Of a stretch of 64,000 bases of DNA, positions 14,376 through 60,791 are shown piece after piece. Made by a program: the position numbers and the translations under genes. Position 1 is the stretch's first letter, and each line of letters begins with the position of its first letter. The notes below the pieces were generated by a model. The model was given only the letters and a program-made list of their open reading frames with translations. It did not search any database and was not told where the DNA came from. This stretch comes from a virus, in IMG/VR virus record IMGVR_UViG_3300044641_004856, positions 1 through 64,000 of that record; one strand, given 5' to 3'.

Positions 14376-15431
14376 GTGGCAACAGCGTCTAACTTAGCCG
14401 AAATGGTTAGGTCCGAAATAGGAGACTCCTCTAAGTCTTTTGTTATGCAGTTTATTGCAGATGGTACAACAAATAGATTTGGTCTTCACTACTCTCCAGT
14501 AGATGCAGCAAGCCTGTACGTAAGATTTGATGATTCCAATGTTTCCAACGATGTTTCCGTAGAGGAAGCAACAGGAGTTTTAGTAACAGATGTGATTCCA
14601 CCAGATGGCACTGAAATCACAGTTGCTGGTAATTACTTTAGATACTTTACACCAGCAGAAATTAATCGCTTTGTAGAAAACGCTGTATTGCAGCATTCAA
14701 ATAATAGAACAGACTCTTTAGGAAGAATTCAAACTCTTGAAAATCTTCCTCCAGTAGAGGTTTATCCAGTATCTCTTCTTGCAAGCACACTTGCTCTTTA
14801 CACTTTAGCAACTGATGCTTCATTCGACATTAACGTCTTTGCTCCAGACGGTGTGACAATTCCACGTTCTGAGCGTTACCGTCAATTAATGGATATGATT
14901 CAAGCACGCAAAGACCAATACCGCGAACTATGTGTTCTGCTTGGTATCGGTATGTATCGTATTGAGGTATTTACATTCCGCAGAATTTCTAAGACAACAA
15001 ATCACTACGTACCAGTTTATCGACCACAGGAGGTGGATGATTACTCTTACCCAGAAAGAATCGAACTTGCCCGACCTACCTATGGCGACCAGCCCTCAGA
15101 ACGACCTTATGACTCTGTGGACCTTACTGCCTATCAAGATGTGGCGTTTACGTACTCTATTCCGTTCGTCGGAAGCCTCGTCACACGAGGAGTAGTAGCA
15201 AATATTCGTTGGAAAGCAGGAGTTTTACAAAGTCACATGCCGTTTACTGTGACAGTTACTACCTCTCCAACCGATAATACAAGCCATACGATTACTTTAA
15301 GTTTGACCAAGGACCAGACCAAAAGACTTGCACAGCGTATGTACTGGGACATCGAGTTAGTTAGTGATAACGGAACTCGAGAAACATACAAGGCTGGCAA
15401 ACTATTTACAGTGCGTGAGGTGACAACGTAA
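14376..15431 (+). CDS. virion protein, possible head-tail connector or fibre attachment protein
   Basis: 351 residues with a GTG start behind GGAGGAT. The N-terminal 180 residues are mixed alpha/beta ([39 protein letters not shown]), as seen in adaptor-like proteins. The last 130 residues form an Ig-like beta unit ([27 protein letters not shown]...). The stop overlaps the start of the collagen-like fibre gene (TAATG), so the two are coupled. A role in anchoring the fibre to the virion is possible but unproven. Confidence 0.5.
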
Positions 15432-17575
15432 TGCCTATTGACCCAAATAGCCCTCTCTATCCAGAGATTGACCCTGCACTTTTACCTGGAGTTCCTACAA
15501 CTCGAGGACCTCGTGGTTATCAAGGACCAACAGGACCAACAGGTCCACAAGGTCCTGCAGGTTCTGCTTCTGCAACTGGTGCAACTGGTGCAACAGGAGC
15601 AACTGGTGCGACAGGTGCAACAGGACCACAAGGTCCTACTGGTGCAGTTGGTCCACAAGGTTTAACTGGATTTACTGGTCCACAAGGTGCAACTGGTCCT
15701 ACTGGTGCTGACTCTCTTGTAACTGGTCCTACTGGTGCTGCAGGAGCAACAGGACCTACTGGTGCGATGGGTTCTACTGGTGCTACAGGTGCAATGGGTG
15801 CGACAGGACCAACAGGTCAACAAGGTATTCAAGGTCCACAAGGTATTCAAGGTGTAACTGGTCCGACTGGTGCATCTGGTGTTGCTGGTAATACAGGAGC
15901 AACTGGACCAACTGGTTCACAAGGTATTCAAGGACCAACAGGACCTACTGGTGCTACTGGTGCTGCTTCAACAGTAACTGGACCTACAGGTCCGACTGGT
16001 GCACAAGGTGCACTTGGTTTTACTGGACCTACAGGTTCTACTGGACCTACAGGACCAACAGGTGCTGCTTCAACAGTTACAGGACCTACAGGTAACACAG
16101 GACCTACAGGACCTACAGGACCTACTGGTGCACAAGGAACTGCTGTAACAATTAAGGGTGAGTATGCCGATGAAGCAACTTTACTTGCTGCTCGTCCTAC
16201 AGGAAATTTTGGCGATGCTTATTTAATCGCAAGTGGTGATTTGTATGTTTGGACTCCAAACTCAACTCCACCAAACTTTGGTACATGGAATAACGTTGGA
16301 AACATTCAAGGACCAACAGGACCTCGAGGTTTTACTGGACCAACTGGTGCTGAAGGTGCTGCTTCAACAGTAACTGGACCAACAGGTTCTACTGGTCCTA
16401 CAGGAGCCACTGGTGCTACTGGTGCTGCTTCAACCGTAACTGGTCCTACAGGTGCAACAGGTCCTACTGGTGCAACTGGTCCTACTGGTGCTACTGGTGC
16501 TGCTTCAACCGTAACTGGTCCTACAGGTTCTACTGGACCAACAGGAGCAACTGGTGCAGCCTCAACTGTTACTGGTCCAACAGGTGCTACTGGACCAACA
16601 GGTCCAACTGGAGCAACTGGTCAAGATGGTACATCTATTAACCTTAAGGGAACTGTTGCAGCAGTTGAGAATCTTCCTGCAACAGGAAATACAAATGGTG
16701 ATGCTTACCTTGTAACTGCAACAGGAAATATTTGGATTTGGTCAGGAAGTGCTTGGACAGATGGTGGACCATTCCGTGGTCCAACTGGTGCGACTGGACC
16801 TACTGGTCCAACTGGAGCCACTGGTGCTGCCTCTACTGTTACAGGACCGACTGGTGCTACAGGACCTACTGGTGCTACTGGACCAACAGGTGCACAAGGC
16901 CCAACAGGTGCACGTAACGGAACAACCTTTAAGATTACAAATAATGGTGCGGGAACACAATTTTTAGTTGAAGGTATTCCAGGAGACACACCAACACTTG
17001 ATGTTGTTCGTGGAGAAACTTACTACTTTGATTTAAGTGCTGTGCCTATTACAGACTCTTTCACAATTCGCTTTAACTTAACAGATACTGCAAACCCAAT
17101 TCCTGGAATGGTTGGAAACAACATTTCTACAGGAGCCTACGGTGGCAGTACTCCAAACATTATTACCTACACAGTTCCTCTTGATGCTCCAGCAAACTTA
17201 GTTTACCGAAGCGTTCAAGATGCAACTCAAGTTGGTGTCATTGCTATCTATGATAAGCGTGGTCCTACAGGACCTACTGGTCCACAGGGTGTAACTGGTC
17301 CTACGGGTGCAGCATCAACCGTTACGGGTCCTACGGGTCCTACAGGTCCTACTGGTCCTACTGGTCCTGTTGGTCAATTCACTGCCTCAGAAAGTGCTCC
17401 TACTGTTGAAAGTGCAGAAGCAGGTGATGCTTGGTTTAACACTCAAAATGCAAAAACTTACGTATTCTTTAATAATGCGTGGGTAGAGGTTGCTTCAGGA
17501 AACCTTGGTCCTACTGGTCCACAAGGACAGGCTGGTTCATTAGCACTATCTACAATGTGGTGGTTAGGAGCATGA
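15431..17575 (+). CDS. collagen-like fibre protein 1
   Basis: 714 residues. Five blocks of Gly-X-Y triplets, mostly GPT and GAT, alternate with globular modules: about 236-293 ([24 protein letters not shown]), about 399-450 (a related module, [22 protein letters not shown]), about 495-610 (a cupredoxin-like beta sandwich with no Cys, His or Met ligands) and about 648-690 ([20 protein letters not shown]). Collagen repeats form trimeric rods, so this is probably a flexible fibre that carries binding modules. Start overlaps the previous stop; the stop overlaps the next micro-gene. Confidence 0.85.
15506..17535 (+). repeat. Gly-X-Y collagen repeat tracts in fibre 1
   Basis: Triplet tracts lie at about 15506-16143, 16310-16628, 16778-16918, 17261-17370 and 17506-17535, broken by the globular modules. 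The nine-base theme GGTCCTACT/GGACCAACA recurs with synonymous changes, giving a DNA landscape prone to unequal recombination. Confidence 0.9.
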
Positions 17576-26511: not shown

Positions 26512-27990
<1,479 letters not shown>

Positions 27991-49822: not shown

Positions 49823-50290
49823 ATGACGCGATTATTAATTGTTGGTAGTGCTGATGACATAGATGTAACAGTTGGTTTGCGACAGTTGTTGGATAAAAGA
49901 GTCATTGCAGAGATTGTTCTTCCCTCTAGTGAACCAAATGAAACACAAGACCAAATCATCCTCACTGCTTCTGAAAAAGGCATTCCTGTTAGCACGGGAG
50001 GAGATTTAGATACGTTGATGGAAGTTTTTGTTGCGGATGATATTTTGGCAGTTGCATGGGATGAATCAGATGAGTGCTTTGAGGCTATTGAATGGGCACA
50101 TGACAAAGGCTTAGATATATGGGACATTTCAAATGGCTTAAATATCGTTGATACACAGACAGAGGCTTTGGAAGAACACCTAGATGAAGTGCTTGCAGAC
50201 TTTACTGAATCCTTGTCAGCATTGATTTACAAGATGGTGATGGACCAAATTAACGGCGATGGTAAGCACAAATACCGTCGCTCTGAGTGA
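49823..50290 (+). CDS. hypothetical nucleotide-fold protein
   Basis: 155 residues behind AGGAG. It starts with a Rossmann-like strand (RLLIVGSADDIDVTVG), followed by alternating strands and helices (IAEIVLPSSEPNETQDQIILTASEKGIPV, DDILAVAWDESDECFEAIEWAHDKGLDIWDI). This suggests a small sensor or nucleotide-like fold without clear catalytic residues. It leads the replication block and overlaps the next gene by GTGA. Confidence 0.5.
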   Translation: MTRLLIVGSADDIDVTVGLRQLLDKRVIAEIVLPSSEPNETQDQIILTASEKGIPVSTGGDLDTLMEVFVADDILAVAWDESDECFEAIEWAHDKGLDIWDISNGLNIVDTQTEALEEHLDEVLADFTESLSALIYKMVMDQINGDGKHKYRRSE

Positions 50291-51252
50291 GCCTTTCATC
50301 TCGGCTGCTCGACGCGAATTTAAGCCATTTTCAATTTCGTCTCTTCGTTACACTGTGGTCCTTAGCGACCTCTGACGGGGTGGTAGAGCAGTCAATGGAT
50401 ACTCTCGGCTGCTCGACGCAGGCTAAATCTAGGAACACCGTCAGAGAGGCTATACGAGCCTTAGAGGACAAGGGGCTACTTGAAACACAACGCAAAAAGC
50501 GTGGGCGAGGGTTCTATTCTGGGAACACATACCAGTTGTTATGCCCTCTGTGGGAGGCATCAGTATGCCCTGCAGAGAGGGCATCTACAGATAGAGCAGA
50601 TAGTAACTATGACTACCTAGTTAATAGACTATTAGTACCTAATAGTCATATTAGTCAAACTAGTTATGAAAATATAAAAATACAAAAAGTAAGTGAGGAA
50701 TCAATGAATAAAAGTTGGCGTGAAGAACAAGCCAAGGATGATTCCATTGGTGGTATTGGAAAGTTGGAGTCAGAGACACCGAGGACACCGCCGAGCAAGA
50801 AAGACACTAAGACACGAGGACTGCGACCAGAGGCAGAATGGACAAGTCGCGATGTAGCAGCAGAGTTTTCTTACCTTGTTGGCAAGAAGTTTCCCTGGCT
50901 TCCAGGAACTGTCAACGTCGGTCACCTTGCAGGAGCACTCGCCAAGCAACGCAGCCAGTATCAGACGACAGCCCTGGTCGAACTAGAGTTGTTAAAGATG
51001 TTTATGGCTGACCAAAAGAACTTTATAGGTATCGGCAACGAGGCTCCTTATCTCTATAAGAAGTTTCTCCAGATGTTTAGGACCCACCTGGTCAAGGCGC
51101 ACAACAATCTTGGGATAGTCCTGCCGAATGTCGAGGGCGTGTCAGAAGAGATTAATACCGATGTCGTCTATGCTTCTGACGGAAGAACATTCGACAACAC
51201 GATTGCAGGTCGGTCTGCGCTAGAAAGGTATGAGAAAAAGTTAAATGCCTAA
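50287..51252 (+). CDS. winged-helix replication-initiation-like protein
   Basis: 321 residues, GTG start overlapping the previous TGA. The N-terminal 90 residues form a winged helix (HFQFRLFVTLWSLATSDGVVEQSMDTLGCSTQAKSRNTVREAIRALEDKGLLETQRKKRGRGF), as in phage initiators and primosome helpers. A disordered linker rich in Ser/Lys/Thr follows, and a helical C-terminal domain (RDVAAEFSYLVGKKFPWLPG, EAPYLYKKFLQMFRTHL) may contact the helicase loader. DNA composition here is more GC-rich than in neighbours, and a 17-bp sequence is present twice in its 5' part. Confidence 0.6.
   Translation: MSLSSRLLDANLSHFQFRLFVTLWSLATSDGVVEQSMDTLGCSTQAKSRNTVREAIRALEDKGLLETQRKKRGRGFYSGNTYQLLCPLWEASVCPAERASTDRADSNYDYLVNRLLVPNSHISQTSYENIKIQKVSEESMNKSWREEQAKDDSIGGIGKLESETPRTPPSKKDTKTRGLRPEAEWTSRDVAAEFSYLVGKKFPWLPGTVNVGHLAGALAKQRSQYQTTALVELELLKMFMADQKNFIGIGNEAPYLYKKFLQMFRTHLVKAHNNLGIVLPNVEGVSEEINTDVVYASDGRTFDNTIAGRSALERYEKKLNA
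50299..50419 (+). repeat. two copies of a 17-bp direct repeat (possible iterons)
   Basis: TCTCGGCTGCTCGACGC occurs at 50299-50315 and at 50403-50419. The copies are 104 bases apart, so they fall in different reading frames (SRLLDA in the first, TLGCSTQ in the second). Protein conservation therefore cannot explain the identity. Two sites inside an initiator-like gene resemble iterons of phage origins such as lambda O. Confidence 0.55.
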
Positions 51253-51659: not shown

Positions 51660-51855
51660 AAAGAAAAAAGATTTACCCGTTTTTGCTATTGTCACTATGC
51701 CCAAGTGGAAGTCTAAAATTTTAGATGTTATTGTCGGCATCTTGTTTCCAGGAGAGTTGTATTTTGTTTTAACAATCCAAGAAACAGGTATGACTACAAA
51801 CGGTAAAGGCAAATACACCGACGACAGAGGAGTATCAGTTGACTTATCAGATTGA
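51652..51855 (+). CDS. small hypothetical protein
   Basis: 67 residues. A Lys-rich start (AKKKKDLPVF) is followed by VIVGILFPGELYFVLTIQETG, a hydrophobic strand or re-entrant segment, and a polar end. It overlaps the membrane peptide by 8 bases and the helicase loader by 17. Not recognised. Confidence 0.5.
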   Translation: MAKKKKDLPVFAIVTMPKWKSKILDVIVGILFPGELYFVLTIQETGMTTNGKGKYTDDRGVSVDLSD

Positions 51856-52561
51856 ATCGTTATCTCCTTTCAAACGACATTGGATACTCCGTAATTCAAA
51901 TATCCCCCGACGTTTTCTTGGGTTAGAACCTTCTGACATGTTGTCTGAGTTTCCAGAAACAGTCGTTGATTGGCTGGACGAGATAGTAACGGGCAACGTT
52001 ATTAAGCAGGTTGGTGGTCTTGGTTTAACAGGCGTTGGGTTACTTTTTGATGGAGGACCAGGACTTGGCAAAACAACTCACGCAGTTGTAGCAGCCATGG
52101 AGTTTGTTAAGAATTTACCTGACGATGAAGACACTGCTAAAAAAGTTCTTGAATACAAGTCAGGCTCAGATTACGGAATGTTATCTCGCCCTATTTATTA
52201 CTTAACCTATCCTGAGTTTCTGTCTCGCAAAAAGGCTATGTTTGACGCAGATGCTGATGAAAAGCGTGAGATGAACCGTGAAATGGAGGGGTTTCACGGA
52301 CGTGCAAAAGAAGATTGGTTAAACGTTAGGTTGTTGATACTTGACGACTTAGGTAAGGAATACGGCTCTAACTACGACAACACTTCTTTTGACGAGATTT
52401 TACGCAGTCGATACGACAGAGCATTGCCTACAATAGTAACTACCAACGAGATGCTGGAAAATTGGGGAGCCAAATACAGCAACGCGATGGCGAGTTTTGC
52501 TAATGAGGCATTCCAAAGAGTTCGCCTAGTTAACAAAGACTTACGGAAGGCACGAGCATGA
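51839..52561 (+). CDS. DnaC/IstB-like helicase loader
   Basis: 240 residues, TTG start with AGAGGAG six bases upstream. An AAA+ ATPase: Walker A GGPGLGKTT (72-80), Walker B LLILDDLG (165-172) and a sensor-like TIVTTNE (198-204). The order and the short N-terminal part fit loaders that place the replicative helicase on DNA. The helicase gene follows two genes later. It overlaps the next gene by four bases. Confidence 0.8.
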   Translation: MTYQIESLSPFKRHWILRNSNIPRRFLGLEPSDMLSEFPETVVDWLDEIVTGNVIKQVGGLGLTGVGLLFDGGPGLGKTTHAVVAAMEFVKNLPDDEDTAKKVLEYKSGSDYGMLSRPIYYLTYPEFLSRKKAMFDADADEKREMNREMEGFHGRAKEDWLNVRLLILDDLGKEYGSNYDNTSFDEILRSRYDRALPTIVTTNEMLENWGAKYSNAMASFANEAFQRVRLVNKDLRKARA

Positions 52562-52860: not shown

Positions 52861-53273
52861 GAAATGGCGACATCTCTAATGAAACACCTTCGCGTTTAAT
52901 TGTTCTTGCAGAAGTTGTTGCCCAAACTGAAGAAGTAAAAGAAAAGAAACTTTTTAAATCTTCTACATATCTTCGCATTAGTAACATAAATAAAGAAGCA
53001 GTTGCACAGTTATGGATTTTAACTAACAAATACGGTTTGTCCGTAGAACTTGCAGGTATTGAGGAAAGTGGTTTAGATAAATCTGACTTAGACCACATTA
53101 TGGAAATTCTTGACAGGAGAGGAGGTAACCCGTTTAATTTTGCACAGATTTACATGACGACACAGGAGTTAGTAGATGACTTGCCCTATCGCGTAAATCT
53201 AAAAGGTGTGATAGACATTCCCCCTAGATTGGGAAGATATGGTTCTTGGGGTATTGAATTAAATCGTTTATGA
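52857..53273 (+). CDS. hypothetical replication-region protein
   Basis: 138 residues, GTG start overlapping the previous TGA (GTGA). Mixed alpha/beta with LIVLAEVVAQTEEVKEKKLF, INKEAVAQLWILTNKYGLSVELAGIEE and FAQIYMTTQELVDDLPYRVNLKG. No family recognised. Its position between a SWIM protein and the helicase suggests a part in replication. Confidence 0.5.
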   Translation: MRNGDISNETPSRLIVLAEVVAQTEEVKEKKLFKSSTYLRISNINKEAVAQLWILTNKYGLSVELAGIEESGLDKSDLDHIMEILDRRGGNPFNFAQIYMTTQELVDDLPYRVNLKGVIDIPPRLGRYGSWGIELNRL

Positions 53274-53288
53274 GAGGAGAATAAATTC

Positions 53289-54542
53289 GTGGCAGCAGAT
53301 AATGAACACAGACTAGTAAGTAAAGTAATTCGTGACCGCGACATTCTCCCAGTATTACAACGCGGAGTTACATTTGATTGGTTTTTAGATGACGACAATT
53401 CTCGCGTATGGAAATTTGTTGTAAAGCACTATGCAGAGTATTCAGAAGTTCCAACTGCTGTAACTGTTAAAGACCATTATCCAACATACAAAATTTTAGA
53501 TGTTCAAGATTCACTTGAGTTTTTAGTTGACCAAGCCGTAACGTTTAGAAGAAAACTTCTTGTAAGACAGGGTTTAGAAAACTCTGTTCAAAAATTAACA
53601 GAGAATGACCACGAAGGTGCTTTGGTTGCTATGGAAGCAGCCATTACTCGTGTTAACTCACAGGGTGTTCAGGGAACTAACGAACTTGATTTAACAAAAG
53701 ATGCGGAAGCAAGATTTGCTGAGTATCAAGCATTAGCAAACCAAACAATGCTGGGAATTCCAACAGGCTTCGACAAAATTGACGAGGCAACTGCTGGATT
53801 ACAGGGTGGGCAGTTAGTGACAGTTATTGCTCCTCCTAAAACAGGTAAGTCACAAATAGCACTAGCAATAGCGATACACGTGCATCGTGACGGCAAAGTG
53901 CCAATGTTCCAGTCTTTTGAAATGACTAACAGAGAACAACAACAACGGCATGACTCAATTCGTGCTCAAGTTTCTCATGGTCGTCTTCGTCGCGGAAAAC
54001 TCTTTCAAGATGAAGAGACTCGTTATATTGATATGTTAAAAGGCATGGACGGAATGAAAGAATCGTTCCATCTTGTTGACGCTGTAAATGGGTTAACAGT
54101 TGCCTCTTTATCTGCCAAGATTTCAAAGTTACAGCCAGACATTGTGTTTGTTGATGGTGTTTATCTCATGATGGATGAAATGACTGGTGAGATGAATACG
54201 CCACAATCTATTACAAACGTAACGCGAGCATTGAAACGTCTTGCTCAACGTCACGACATTCCAGTAGTTGTAACTACTCAGACTTTGTTATGGAAGATGA
54301 AGGGCGGGAAGGTAACTGCAGACTCTATTGGTTACTCCTCATCATTCTTCCAAGACTCAGATGTCATCCTTGGTTTAGAACCCGTTCCAGATTACGACGA
54401 TTTAAGAACTTTAAAGATTGTTGCAAGCCGTAACTGTGGTCCTAGTGAAACAAGTTTGACATGGAAGTGGGAGACAGGGTGTTTCCACGAAGAATCAAAA
54501 AACTCAACTTGTGCTGTTTGTAAGAGAGGCTTAGTAATATGA
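53289..54542 (+). CDS. DnaB-like replicative helicase
   Basis: 417 residues, GTG start with GAGGAG. A short N-terminal domain precedes the RecA-like motor: GIPTGFDKIDEATAGLQGGQLVTVIAPPKTGKSQIA with Walker A APPKTGKS (181-188), the DnaB signature PMFQSFEMTNREQQQR (about 205-220), and Walker B DIVFVDG (D289). It unwinds DNA at the fork. The end has CAVC, possibly half of a zinc site. Coupled to the primase gene (ATGA). Confidence 0.88.
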   Translation: MAADNEHRLVSKVIRDRDILPVLQRGVTFDWFLDDDNSRVWKFVVKHYAEYSEVPTAVTVKDHYPTYKILDVQDSLEFLVDQAVTFRRKLLVRQGLENSVQKLTENDHEGALVAMEAAITRVNSQGVQGTNELDLTKDAEARFAEYQALANQTMLGIPTGFDKIDEATAGLQGGQLVTVIAPPKTGKSQIALAIAIHVHRDGKVPMFQSFEMTNREQQQRHDSIRAQVSHGRLRRGKLFQDEETRYIDMLKGMDGMKESFHLVDAVNGLTVASLSAKISKLQPDIVFVDGVYLMMDEMTGEMNTPQSITNVTRALKRLAQRHDIPVVVTTQTLLWKMKGGKVTADSIGYSSSFFQDSDVILGLEPVPDYDDLRTLKIVASRNCGPSETSLTWKWETGCFHEESKNSTCAVCKRGLVI

Positions 54543-55501
54543 CGGTTGTAGATGTTGTTAAAGTTTTGGATAAATTAGGTGTATTTATCATAAGAGAACG
54601 TGGCGATGAAATGCTTGCTCATTGTCCTGGTCATGAAACTCGGACTGGACAAAAAGATGTTAACCCTTCTTGGTACATCAACCAACGAACAGGTGCTCAC
54701 ATGTGTTTTTCTTGTGGATTCAAAGGAAACTTATTCTCTTTAGTTGGGGAAGTCCAAGGCTTCTACATTTCAGAGGACATTGATTACAGCGCAGTTAGTA
54801 AATGGATTGCACAGATTGAAAACATTACTCCACAAGAATTGGCTGCTCGTCTAAAAGAAGCACCGCAGTATGTAGCACCAAAACAAGAATTACCTATGGA
54901 CGATTCACGATTGGCTTTATTTACAGAGCCTCCAGCATGGGCTTTAGAATCTAGAGGCTTAACAGCCGAAGCATGTCGTAAGTATGAGGTGCTGTGGGCA
55001 AAAGAAGATACGTGGATACTTCCAATTAGAAACCCACATGACCACACTTTATGGGGTTGGCAAGAAAAGCATTCGAAGCAACGTTTGTTTAGAAATAGAC
55101 CTCTAGGTGTTACAAAATCTCGCACATTATTTGGTGCACACGAAGTAACTCCAGAGCAATCAATTTTAGTTGAGTCACCTCTTGATGCTGTACGAATTGC
55201 TTCTGCAGGAGTAGTAGGGGGAGTGGCTGCCTTTGGAGCACAGGTAAGTGAGTCTCAACTTAAACTCCTACGGTATTCCGATGTGGTCATTGTTGCGTTA
55301 GACAATCCAAAAGTCGACCCTGCTGGAAAAAAAGGTTGCGAAGCATTTTTACAAGGGGCTAAGAAGTTAGGCATTACTGCTAAGTTCTTTAACTACGCTT
55401 CAACAGGTTTAAAGGATGTTGGCGATATGGCTAACGAACAAATTCTTTGGGGCATAGAGAATGCTATTGACATGATTTATGGGGAGAAGGCGTATCTCTA
55501 A
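54539..55501 (+). CDS. DnaG-type DNA primase
   Basis: 320 residues, shorter than bacterial DnaG and lacking its C-terminal helicase-binding part. The zinc domain has CPGH (C29, H32) and CFSCGFKGN (C56, C59). The TOPRIM domain shows ILVESPLDAVRIASAG (E212) and VVIVALDNPKVDPAGKKG (D255 and D260). It lays down RNA primers. It directly follows the helicase, and its TAA overlaps the next ATG. Confidence 0.85.
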   Translation: MTVVDVVKVLDKLGVFIIRERGDEMLAHCPGHETRTGQKDVNPSWYINQRTGAHMCFSCGFKGNLFSLVGEVQGFYISEDIDYSAVSKWIAQIENITPQELAARLKEAPQYVAPKQELPMDDSRLALFTEPPAWALESRGLTAEACRKYEVLWAKEDTWILPIRNPHDHTLWGWQEKHSKQRLFRNRPLGVTKSRTLFGAHEVTPEQSILVESPLDAVRIASAGVVGGVAAFGAQVSESQLKLLRYSDVVIVALDNPKVDPAGKKGCEAFLQGAKKLGITAKFFNYASTGLKDVGDMANEQILWGIENAIDMIYGEKAYL

Positions 55502-58727: not shown

Positions 58728-58757
58728 GGGGAGTCTGTGCCGTCACACAGACTCCCC
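58728..58757 (+). terminator. 12-bp hairpin before polymerase
   Basis: GGGGAGTCTGTG (58728-58739) pairs perfectly with CACAGACTCCCC (58746-58757) around six bases. ACTTCTATAAC follows instead of a T-run. A GTG in the stem (58737) is in frame with the polymerase but is not a plausible start. Confidence 0.7.
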
Positions 58758-58778
58758 ACTTCTATAACAAGGGGCATT

Positions 58779-60791
58779 ATGAATATCATTACAACGGCTA
58801 TTGCTTTACAGGAAATGGTCGATTACTACTTAGACCAACCTGCTTTTGCTTTTGACGTAGAAACAGTTGGACCTGATGACTTTTCTCGCCTTCATCCCAT
58901 GCTAAATGAAATCACTTGGATTTCTTTTGCTACAGAAGGACGTGTTGATGTTATTCCAATGGGACACCCAAATGGAGAGTTTTTGCACTGGAATAAACCT
59001 TTATTAAGTTCTGCACAGGCTAGAGCAGATGAGGGCTTAGAAATCCGTGAACAAGATTTTTCAAGACGTGAAACAAGTTGGACCCCAGTATTTGATGTTC
59101 CACCAGAACAACTATTACCAGGAGAAGTTTTTGCAGCCTTAAAACCTTTAATGTTTAGCGATAAACTAAAAATTGGCCATAACTTAAAATTTGATTTAAA
59201 GGCTATAGCCAAATATTACCGTGGAGTTGTTTGTTCCAAACCTTACTTTGACACTTTGATGGCTGCTTTTATTATCGATAACAGAACAAAAAACGGCTTA
59301 TCTTTAGATGCTTGTGCTGCTCGTGAACTTGGCATAGAGGTCACTAAAGGAATTGGAAAAGCAGTTGAGCGTCATTCTTTTAGCGATGTTGCTAACTACG
59401 CTGGAATTGATGCAGAAACAACTTGGAAATTATACAAAGCGTATGAACCTAGACTAAAAGATTACAACTTACTTACAGTATGGCGTTTAGAGATGGACTT
59501 GCTTCTAGTTCTTGCAGACATGGAACTAACTGGAGCACACATGGACGAAAATGAGTTAAGTCTTTTAGCAAAAAGGTTAGAAAAAGACTTAATTGAAGTT
59601 ACTGGTAACGCTTACCGATTAGCGGGAAAAGAGTTTGCATTGAACTCAATTCCTGAAAAACAAGCCTTGTTATTTACACCTAAATCCGAAGGCGGACGAG
59701 GAATTAGACCAAATACTAAGATTAAGATTGCTCTAACTCCTAAAGGACTAGAGGCTTCAAAGAAGGGTGAAGAGTTAACAACTCGTCATTACTCAACTAG
59801 TGCAGAAGCACTCGAGTATTACAGAGAAAAAGACCCTTTAGTTGCAGAGATTTTAAAATATCAAGATTTAAATAAGATAATGACAACTTACGTAACTCCC
59901 TATACAGGGGGTGAAATTACGAGAACCACGGCTGGTAAGTCTAAAACTTCTGAAAAGCACAGTTTGCTAGTCAATGGAAAAGTTCATACAAACTTTAAAT
60001 CTCATGGAGCCGAGACTGGTCGTTTTTCCAGTAGTGAACCAAATTTACAAAACATTCCAACCGATGGAGCCTACGGTAAGTTAATTAGAAATCTATTTAT
60101 TGCTCCTCCAGGACATAAGTTAGTAGTTGCTGACTACTCACAAATTGAACCAAGAATTATCGCTTCTTTTTCTAAAGACCCTGAGTTCGTAAAAAACTAC
60201 TTAGACGGAGGAGACATTTACACAACCATTGGAGAACGAATGGGTGTAAATAGAAAAGCAGGGAAGGTTTTAGTTTTAGCAATTGCTTACGGAATTGGTC
60301 CAGAAAAAATTGCAGACCAACTTAGTTGTACTGTAAAAGAAGCACACCAACTCATGGACTTGTTTAATGATAGGTTTAGAGATATTAACCGTTATAGGCA
60401 TCAATTAATTCGCCTTGCATCACAACAACGACCTATACCTTATGTGTCTACTGTGTTAGGAAGACGACGCTATATTCCAGAGATTCTAAGTAAAGACCTT
60501 GGGCAAAAATCACGTGCCGAACGTCAAGCGTTTAACACGGTTATTCAAGGTTCGGCTGCAGACTTAATTAAACTAGCCATGGTTAGAGCACACTCATGTT
60601 TTATAAATGAGCCTACGGTTAACGTTATATTGACAGTTCATGATGAACTAGTAACAGTTACTCCCGACGCATTAGCCGAACAAGTTGGCGAAGCCATAAA
60701 AGAGTCCATGGAGGGAGTAAGATTGCCTGATATGGTGGTTCCGCTTATTGCGGATATGAAAATTGTGGAAAAGTGGGGTCAAGCAAAATGA
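58779..60791 (+). CDS. family A DNA polymerase
   Basis: 670 residues from ATG 58779, which has AAGGGG just upstream; the in-frame GTG at 58737 lies inside a hairpin. A 3'-5' exonuclease domain has FDVETVG (D26, E28), KIGHNLKFDLKAIAKYY and YAGIDAETTWKLY. The polymerase part has motif A VVADYSQIEPRII (D452), motif B NRKAGKVLVLAIAYGIGPEKIA and motif C TVHDELVTV (D622, E623). It copies the phage genome. No 5' nuclease domain is present. Confidence 0.93.
   Translation: MNIITTAIALQEMVDYYLDQPAFAFDVETVGPDDFSRLHPMLNEITWISFATEGRVDVIPMGHPNGEFLHWNKPLLSSAQARADEGLEIREQDFSRRETSWTPVFDVPPEQLLPGEVFAALKPLMFSDKLKIGHNLKFDLKAIAKYYRGVVCSKPYFDTLMAAFIIDNRTKNGLSLDACAARELGIEVTKGIGKAVERHSFSDVANYAGIDAETTWKLYKAYEPRLKDYNLLTVWRLEMDLLLVLADMELTGAHMDENELSLLAKRLEKDLIEVTGNAYRLAGKEFALNSIPEKQALLFTPKSEGGRGIRPNTKIKIALTPKGLEASKKGEELTTRHYSTSAEALEYYREKDPLVAEILKYQDLNKIMTTYVTPYTGGEITRTTAGKSKTSEKHSLLVNGKVHTNFKSHGAETGRFSSSEPNLQNIPTDGAYGKLIRNLFIAPPGHKLVVADYSQIEPRIIASFSKDPEFVKNYLDGGDIYTTIGERMGVNRKAGKVLVLAIAYGIGPEKIADQLSCTVKEAHQLMDLFNDRFRDINRYRHQLIRLASQQRPIPYVSTVLGRRRYIPEILSKDLGQKSRAERQAFNTVIQGSAADLIKLAMVRAHSCFINEPTVNVILTVHDELVTVTPDALAEQVGEAIKESMEGVRLPDMVVPLIADMKIVEKWGQAK

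Follow-up and report, generated by a model that had tools for sequence, protein, structure and literature searches.

A probable replication origin within the linker-encoding DNA of an O-like initiator gene in a family of uncultured tailed phages

In phage lambda the replication origin sits centrally within the initiator gene, where imperfect inverted repeats of about 19 bp have an A/T-rich tract alongside (PMC7466680). In the account given there, which cites Dodson et al. 1986, two of the repeats together with the A/T tract were described as the minimal unwinding unit. In SPP1, oriL is found inside gene 38 and has direct repeats and an A/T-rich unwinding element, with gp38 working together with the loader gp39 and the DnaB-type helicase gp40 (PMC6316719). 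Furthermore, in the PLE satellites and ICP1 (RepA, Odn) it was described that the initiator DNA-binding domain and the origin repeats are exchanged together, and that a nuclease is joined to an initiator-type DNA-binding domain (PMC8263062).

The window analysed here is a 64,000-base stretch (positions 1 to 64,000) of the 92,874-base IMG/VR record IMGVR_UViG_3300044641_004856, and the phage is marked as a myovirus by the presence of a tail sheath gene. Two genes of the structural region (15431-17575 and 26512-27990) carry long repeats with a 9-base period and are collagen-like (Gly-X-Y). The replication genes and the domains of the initiator are:

50287..51252, plus strand: replication initiator gene, 321 aa, with a GTG start overlapping the stop of the preceding gene (open reading frame; PHROG)
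50287..50556, plus strand: N-terminal winged-helix DNA-binding domain, residues 1-90 (Pfam, AlphaFold, weak fold matches)
50845..51249, plus strand: conserved, mainly helical C-terminal domain, about residues 187-321 (invariant columns; model helices)
51839..52561, plus strand: DnaC-like helicase loader (PHROG 50, E 5e-23)
53289..54542, plus strand: DnaB-like replicative helicase (PHROG 19, E 1e-57; Pfam DnaB_C)
54539..55501, plus strand: DNA primase (PHROG 47, E 3e-32)
58737..60791, plus strand: family A DNA polymerase (Pfam E 6e-89)

A SNF2-type helicase and RecA are also encoded downstream of the initiator. The best match of the initiator protein was to the PHROG 'replication initiation protein' (PHROG 270, E 7e-11), and the O-like PHROGs 391, 678 and 345 matched the winged helix and the linker with E values of 3e-5 to 2e-4; the C-terminal part was left without a match. 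Pfam HTH_36/GntR matches to the winged helix were below the curated cut-offs. In an AlphaFold model built from an alignment of 27 sequences, which was of moderate overall confidence (mean pLDDT 71), residues 1-90 formed a block with a pLDDT of 74-93, and disorder was predicted for the linker (pLDDT <50 at residues 93-114 and 122-141). Fold matches to solved structures were weak and involved the winged-helix part; they included the plasmid initiators 4pql/4pt7 and the O protein of a lambdoid phage. Judged from profiles and model, the protein is O-like, with a winged helix, a disordered linker and a helical C-terminus, the last of which presumably contacts the helicase loader. The original prediction of a winged-helix protein leading the replication block was thus borne out by the profile matches, the model and the gene order, and an initiator with a DNA-binding domain at the head of a block with a loader and a helicase is one of the marks of an in-gene origin.

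The same prediction had drawn attention to an exact 17-bp repeat placed in two reading frames of this gene, and had proposed that the two copies are initiator sites and that the origin may lie among them:

50299..50315, plus strand: 17-mer copy 1, exact repeat, probably not functional
50403..50419, plus strand: 17-mer copy 2, exact repeat, with six mismatches in relative L017; probably not functional and derived in the window's clade

The positions of TCTCGGCTGCTCGACGC and the 104-base spacing were confirmed. Both copies lie within the one gene, 50287-51252, and a search of the whole 92,874-base record gave no third copy. The codons are TCT CGG CTG CTC GAC GC in copy 1 and acT CTC GGC TGC TCG ACG C in copy 2, so that the frames differ. 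With as many as 3 mismatches allowed, 0.02 matches would be expected by chance in the window, and none of 1000 synonymous reshuffles of the initiator gene produced an exact repeat of at least 17 bases. Repetitive low-complexity genes aside, this was the only such pair at most 300 nt apart in the window, and none of 60 simulated windows had such a repeat pair within 300 nt. The repeat is real and beyond chance.

It was this exact two-frame repetition, together with its retention in the nearest relatives, that spoke for the copies binding the initiator, with an origin at 50299-50419. Among 13 distinct near relatives of the window gene (95-98% identical in protein) both copies persisted wherever sequence was available, with at most one change per copy: one synonymous C/T change in either copy, and in L008 an amino-acid change in copy 1. 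However, in L017 (71% identical in protein) copy 1 had one mismatch and copy 2 had six, although this relative retains the linker repeats and the A/T-rich element described below, and in L021 (about 50% identical) neither copy was present. There was therefore no conservation beyond the closest relatives, largely the outcome that had been named in advance as speaking against initiator sites. Nor was synonymous diversity in the nearest clade lowered at the copies, with values per codon of 0.089 and 0.043 where the gene as a whole has 0.113; 47% and 33% of six-codon windows were as low or lower, which makes these values unremarkable. Codon identity between clades around copy 2 was at background (0.31 vs 0.27), both copies lie in DNA that is stabler than average (z about -1.5 to -2), and no inverted repeat inside the 17-mer was listed by the repeat scan. 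Since the codons of L017 at copy 2 are closer to those of the outgroup L021 than the window's codons are, copy 2 seems to be the newer of the two, for which short templated copying of copy 1 is a possible source. The pair lies outside the origin proposed here and looks like a patch that arose in the window's clade and was kept through ordinary descent. In view of the poor conservation, the ordinary synonymous diversity and the stable DNA, the 17-mer is probably incidental, and we regard it as highly unlikely that its copies are initiator sites marking the origin.

A different part of the gene, the DNA that encodes the linker, has the features expected of an in-gene origin:

50541..50560, no strand assigned: proposed initiator site (iteron) 1, dyad ATGCCCTCTGTGGGAGGCAT (synonymous diversity, dyad score)
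50565..50584, no strand assigned: proposed initiator site (iteron) 2, dyad ATGCCCTGCAGAGAGGGCAT (same tests; counterpart in L017)
50593..50700, no strand assigned: DNA-constrained A/T-rich element of the proposed origin (codon identity between clades; within-clade diversity 0.014)
50617..50716, no strand assigned: proposed DNA unwinding element, the least stable 100 bp of the record
50632..50645, no strand assigned: invariant core TTAGTACCTAATAG, the first 12 bases of which are codons for Leu-Val-Pro-Asn

The dyads ATGCCCTCTGTGGGAGGCAT and ATGCCCTGCAGAGAGGGCAT repeat at 24 bp directly before the A/T-rich element. Their two-site dyad score was higher than in all of 1000 synonymous reshuffles and 999 of 1000 codon-order shuffles; as this score was devised after the sites had been seen, conservation is the stronger argument. 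In the nearest clade the dyads were nearly invariant (synonymous diversity 0.010, compared with 0.113 for the gene), the variable bases being confined to the dyad centres and one of them being an amino-acid change. L017 carries GCTATGCCCT twice, likewise at a spacing of 24 bp. Of five occurrences of the half-site ATGCCCT in the window, three fall within the repeat pair. Predicted sites of the repeated initiator type are therefore found inside the initiator gene.

Constraint on the DNA itself was also seen in the A/T-rich element. When the window was compared with three clades whose DNA identity to it was just 0.47-0.57, synonymous codon identity reached 0.71-0.93 at 50599-50682, against 0.34-0.40 expected, and was near expectation over most of the initiator gene outside this interval; within the nearest clade the synonymous diversity of the element was 0.014, as opposed to 0.113 for the gene. 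The core codons TTA GTA CCT AAT (TTAGTACCTAAT) were present in 66 of 66 distinct genes, which had been collected via protein patterns. When viral contigs were scanned for the core, 116 matches were examined, of which 98 were in recognisable family members and a further four in members truncated at the end of a contig, with the remaining matches scattered in unrelated places; because these loci were selected by the core motif, they were not counted towards its conservation. One match with several CTAATAG repeats around it (L133) is not located in an initiator gene and was disregarded. In the same between-clade comparison, synonymous conservation was again in excess, though more weakly, at 50347-50418 (up to 0.62 vs 0.27), and an inverted repeat, CTCTGACGGGGT / ACACCGTCAGAG, is located near it at 50370-50381 and 50435-50446.

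The constrained element overlaps DNA that should be easily melted. By nearest-neighbour energy, 50617-50716 had a z of +4.09 and ranked first in the 92.9-kb record, while the initiator gene elsewhere was mostly stabler than average. Of 76 related loci, 49 had their least stable peak at the homologous site, and in 69 this site was among the top three. The proposed unwinding element begins about 30 bp past the second dyad, and an easily melted tract so placed is a further mark of an in-gene origin.

Could the fixed codons simply follow a fixed peptide? LVPN is indeed invariant as a peptide, but fourfold and sixfold codons are fixed here that are free to vary at other invariant residues of the initiator, and the core codons are not fixed elsewhere in the gene, which contradicts a codon preference. 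Moreover, the constrained DNA coincides with the linker that the model predicts to be disordered (residues 93-114 and 122-141), and constraint on the protein alone is to us scarcely credible as an explanation. A role in transcription or translation in place of an origin, with the linker DNA acting as an internal promoter, an autoregulation operator or an internal start at 50704, also has points in its favour: a Shine-Dalgarno-like AGTGAGGA (50692-50699) stands ahead of an in-frame ATG at 50704, an A/T-rich tract can host an unusual promoter, and operators also look like dyads. Nevertheless, scans found neither a sigma-70 promoter nor a terminator at the element, the spacing between the core and the TTAAAAGA that follows it is not constant in some relatives (30, 36 or 39 nt), and an element in mid-gene over the DNA of lowest stability is the known arrangement of in-gene origins, so that a purely regulatory role is improbable. 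Apart from this question, AGTGAGGA and the ATG at 50704 could be an internal start giving a separate C-terminal initiator product.

Since the initiator gene, the dyads, the adjacent low-stability tract and the frozen synonymous sites match the in-gene origins of lambda and SPP1, we place the putative origin at about 50536-50716. The idea that the origin lies inside the initiator gene was hence right as to its kind, an in-gene origin with an O-like initiator being very probable, and wrong as to its place, the marks of an origin lying in the linker DNA at 50541-50716 and not at the 17-mers. With lambda O and ori-lambda the locus shares the in-gene position, dyad-type repeats and a flanking A/T tract, in addition to the O-like PHROG and the lambdoid O fold match; it differs in having two repeats and not four, in the repeat sequence, in a DnaC-like loader and in the helicase and primase being phage-encoded. 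The likeness to SPP1 is one of arrangement, as repeats and an A/T element lie within the initiator gene and a loader is found with a DnaB-type helicase, whereas SPP1 possesses oriR as a second origin beyond the gene, of which no counterpart was identified in the present phage.

Other signals that are often consulted in locating origins were also examined. No DnaA boxes were found at the element, and TTWTNCACA occurs in the window just twice, at 53138 and 60764, so that this is not an origin of the DnaA type, with boxes near the melted region. Cumulative GC skew, which had been suggested as a check, was flat to about 49.5 kb and rose after it, a change of slope near 49.5-50 kb, but in this linear record, the ends of which are unknown, the absolute minimum was at 2.6 kb and the detrended minimum at 28 kb. 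Fourfold-site skew near 50 kb changed weakly, from -0.27 to -0.12, and reverted further on. GC skew is not decisive and neither supports nor refutes the site. At about 78.2-78.5 kb of the record (L025, about 14.2-14.5 kb) the gene strand flips from plus to minus and cumulative GC skew peaks.

Relatives of the initiator are encoded in 211 IMG/VR contig stretches; there were none among 50,697 records of cultured phages and none among 84,980 bacterial and archaeal species, each represented by one genome. At the place of the window's dyads, other family members have AATGTCC or GGACATT, two copies of CCTCTACAGAGG, or AATTACCGCAC, the last in up to three or more copies. The repeat type (for example AATTACC or AATGTCC, and the ATGCC-type in the window) agreed with the type of recognition helix (SD vs E and others) in 81 of 81 sequences. 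When the C-terminal part was used to build a tree, about eight helix/repeat switches were placed on it, of which five independent pairs stood on well supported branches and were all concordant; a sign test on these gave a p of 0.0625, and 0.05 is unreachable with five pairs. The sequences thus show recognition helix and repeats behaving as a co-inherited cassette, as would be expected if one binds the other. As the two are adjacent in the gene, joint switching speaks for co-inheritance and not for binding itself, and it can reflect the transfer of one segment.

In one clade of the family, clade 3, a hairpin follows the A/T element, for example:

L053:3355-3406, no strand assigned: clade-3 hairpin
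L088:3382-3433, no strand assigned: clade-3 hairpin
L127:4966-5017, no strand assigned: clade-3 hairpin

At least six Watson-Crick pairs were formed in 96% of 53 distinct sequences, compared with 5.5% of synonymous reshuffles, the pairs being counted from the loop outwards, as the MAFFT alignment leaves stems of different length unaligned. There were 27 distinct stems, with compensatory changes and loops such as GAA, AAA and GTA. The covarying hairpin is absent in the window's clade. In three relatives the initiator contains an in-frame HNH endonuclease domain, located after the winged helix and ahead of the origin repeats (Pfam HNH, with E values of 3e-10 for L196 and 5e-8 for L110; recognised by eye in L208). 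This domain may have come in as a homing-type insertion or may be a fused nuclease directed at the origin. Going by published descriptions, the joint exchange is like that in PLE and ICP1, and the nuclease fusion there recalls these HNH insertions in L110, L196 and L208; unlike in the present family, the origin in PLE and ICP1 is intergenic, and the nuclease there is made as a protein of its own.

We consider it very probable that the replication origin lies in the O-like initiator gene, in the DNA encoding the disordered linker, and propose that the dyads are bound, the A/T element melted and the helicase loaded there. The anatomy of the locus, the constraint at the DNA level, the instability and the joint switching of helix and repeats are established. 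We infer from them that initiator binding, melting, loading and initiation would all take place at the linker DNA. The winged-helix domain, probably as dimers, would bind the ATGCC-type dyads at 50541-50560 and 50565-50584, and this binding would strain and melt the adjacent A/T-rich element at 50593-50716, including the core TTAGTACCTAATAG. The C-terminal domain, together with the DnaC-like loader whose gene lies downstream, would put the DnaB helicase on the melted strand, upon which the primase and polymerase of the same block could act. More tentatively, it is possible, if doubtful, that the family has a fixed module for melting or loading, made up of the invariant TTAGTACCTAATAG core and, in clade 3, a hairpin beside it kept by compensatory change. 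This module would be read by the C-terminal domain or the loader, and cassettes of winged helix plus repeats with differing specificity would be swapped onto it, an HNH nuclease having entered the cassette next to the origin in some members.

An origin of this kind, the in-gene kind of lambda and SPP1, is already known; the one proposed here belongs to a large uncultured family with an invariant core, a covarying hairpin in one clade and cassette exchange. Unlike lambda, this family has the invariant core throughout and no relative was found among cultured phages. From synonymous-codon constraint the proposed origin was placed to about 180 bp, with sequence as the sole source, in this group of uncultured tailed phages. 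Recognition helix and repeat occur across the family in many natural pairs, alongside an invariant core and, in one clade, a covarying hairpin, so that the bases read by the initiator and the entry of the helicase could be tested by simple swaps. If the reading of swapped cassettes on a fixed module were true, the core would be a sequence-specific signal for melting or for helicase loading.
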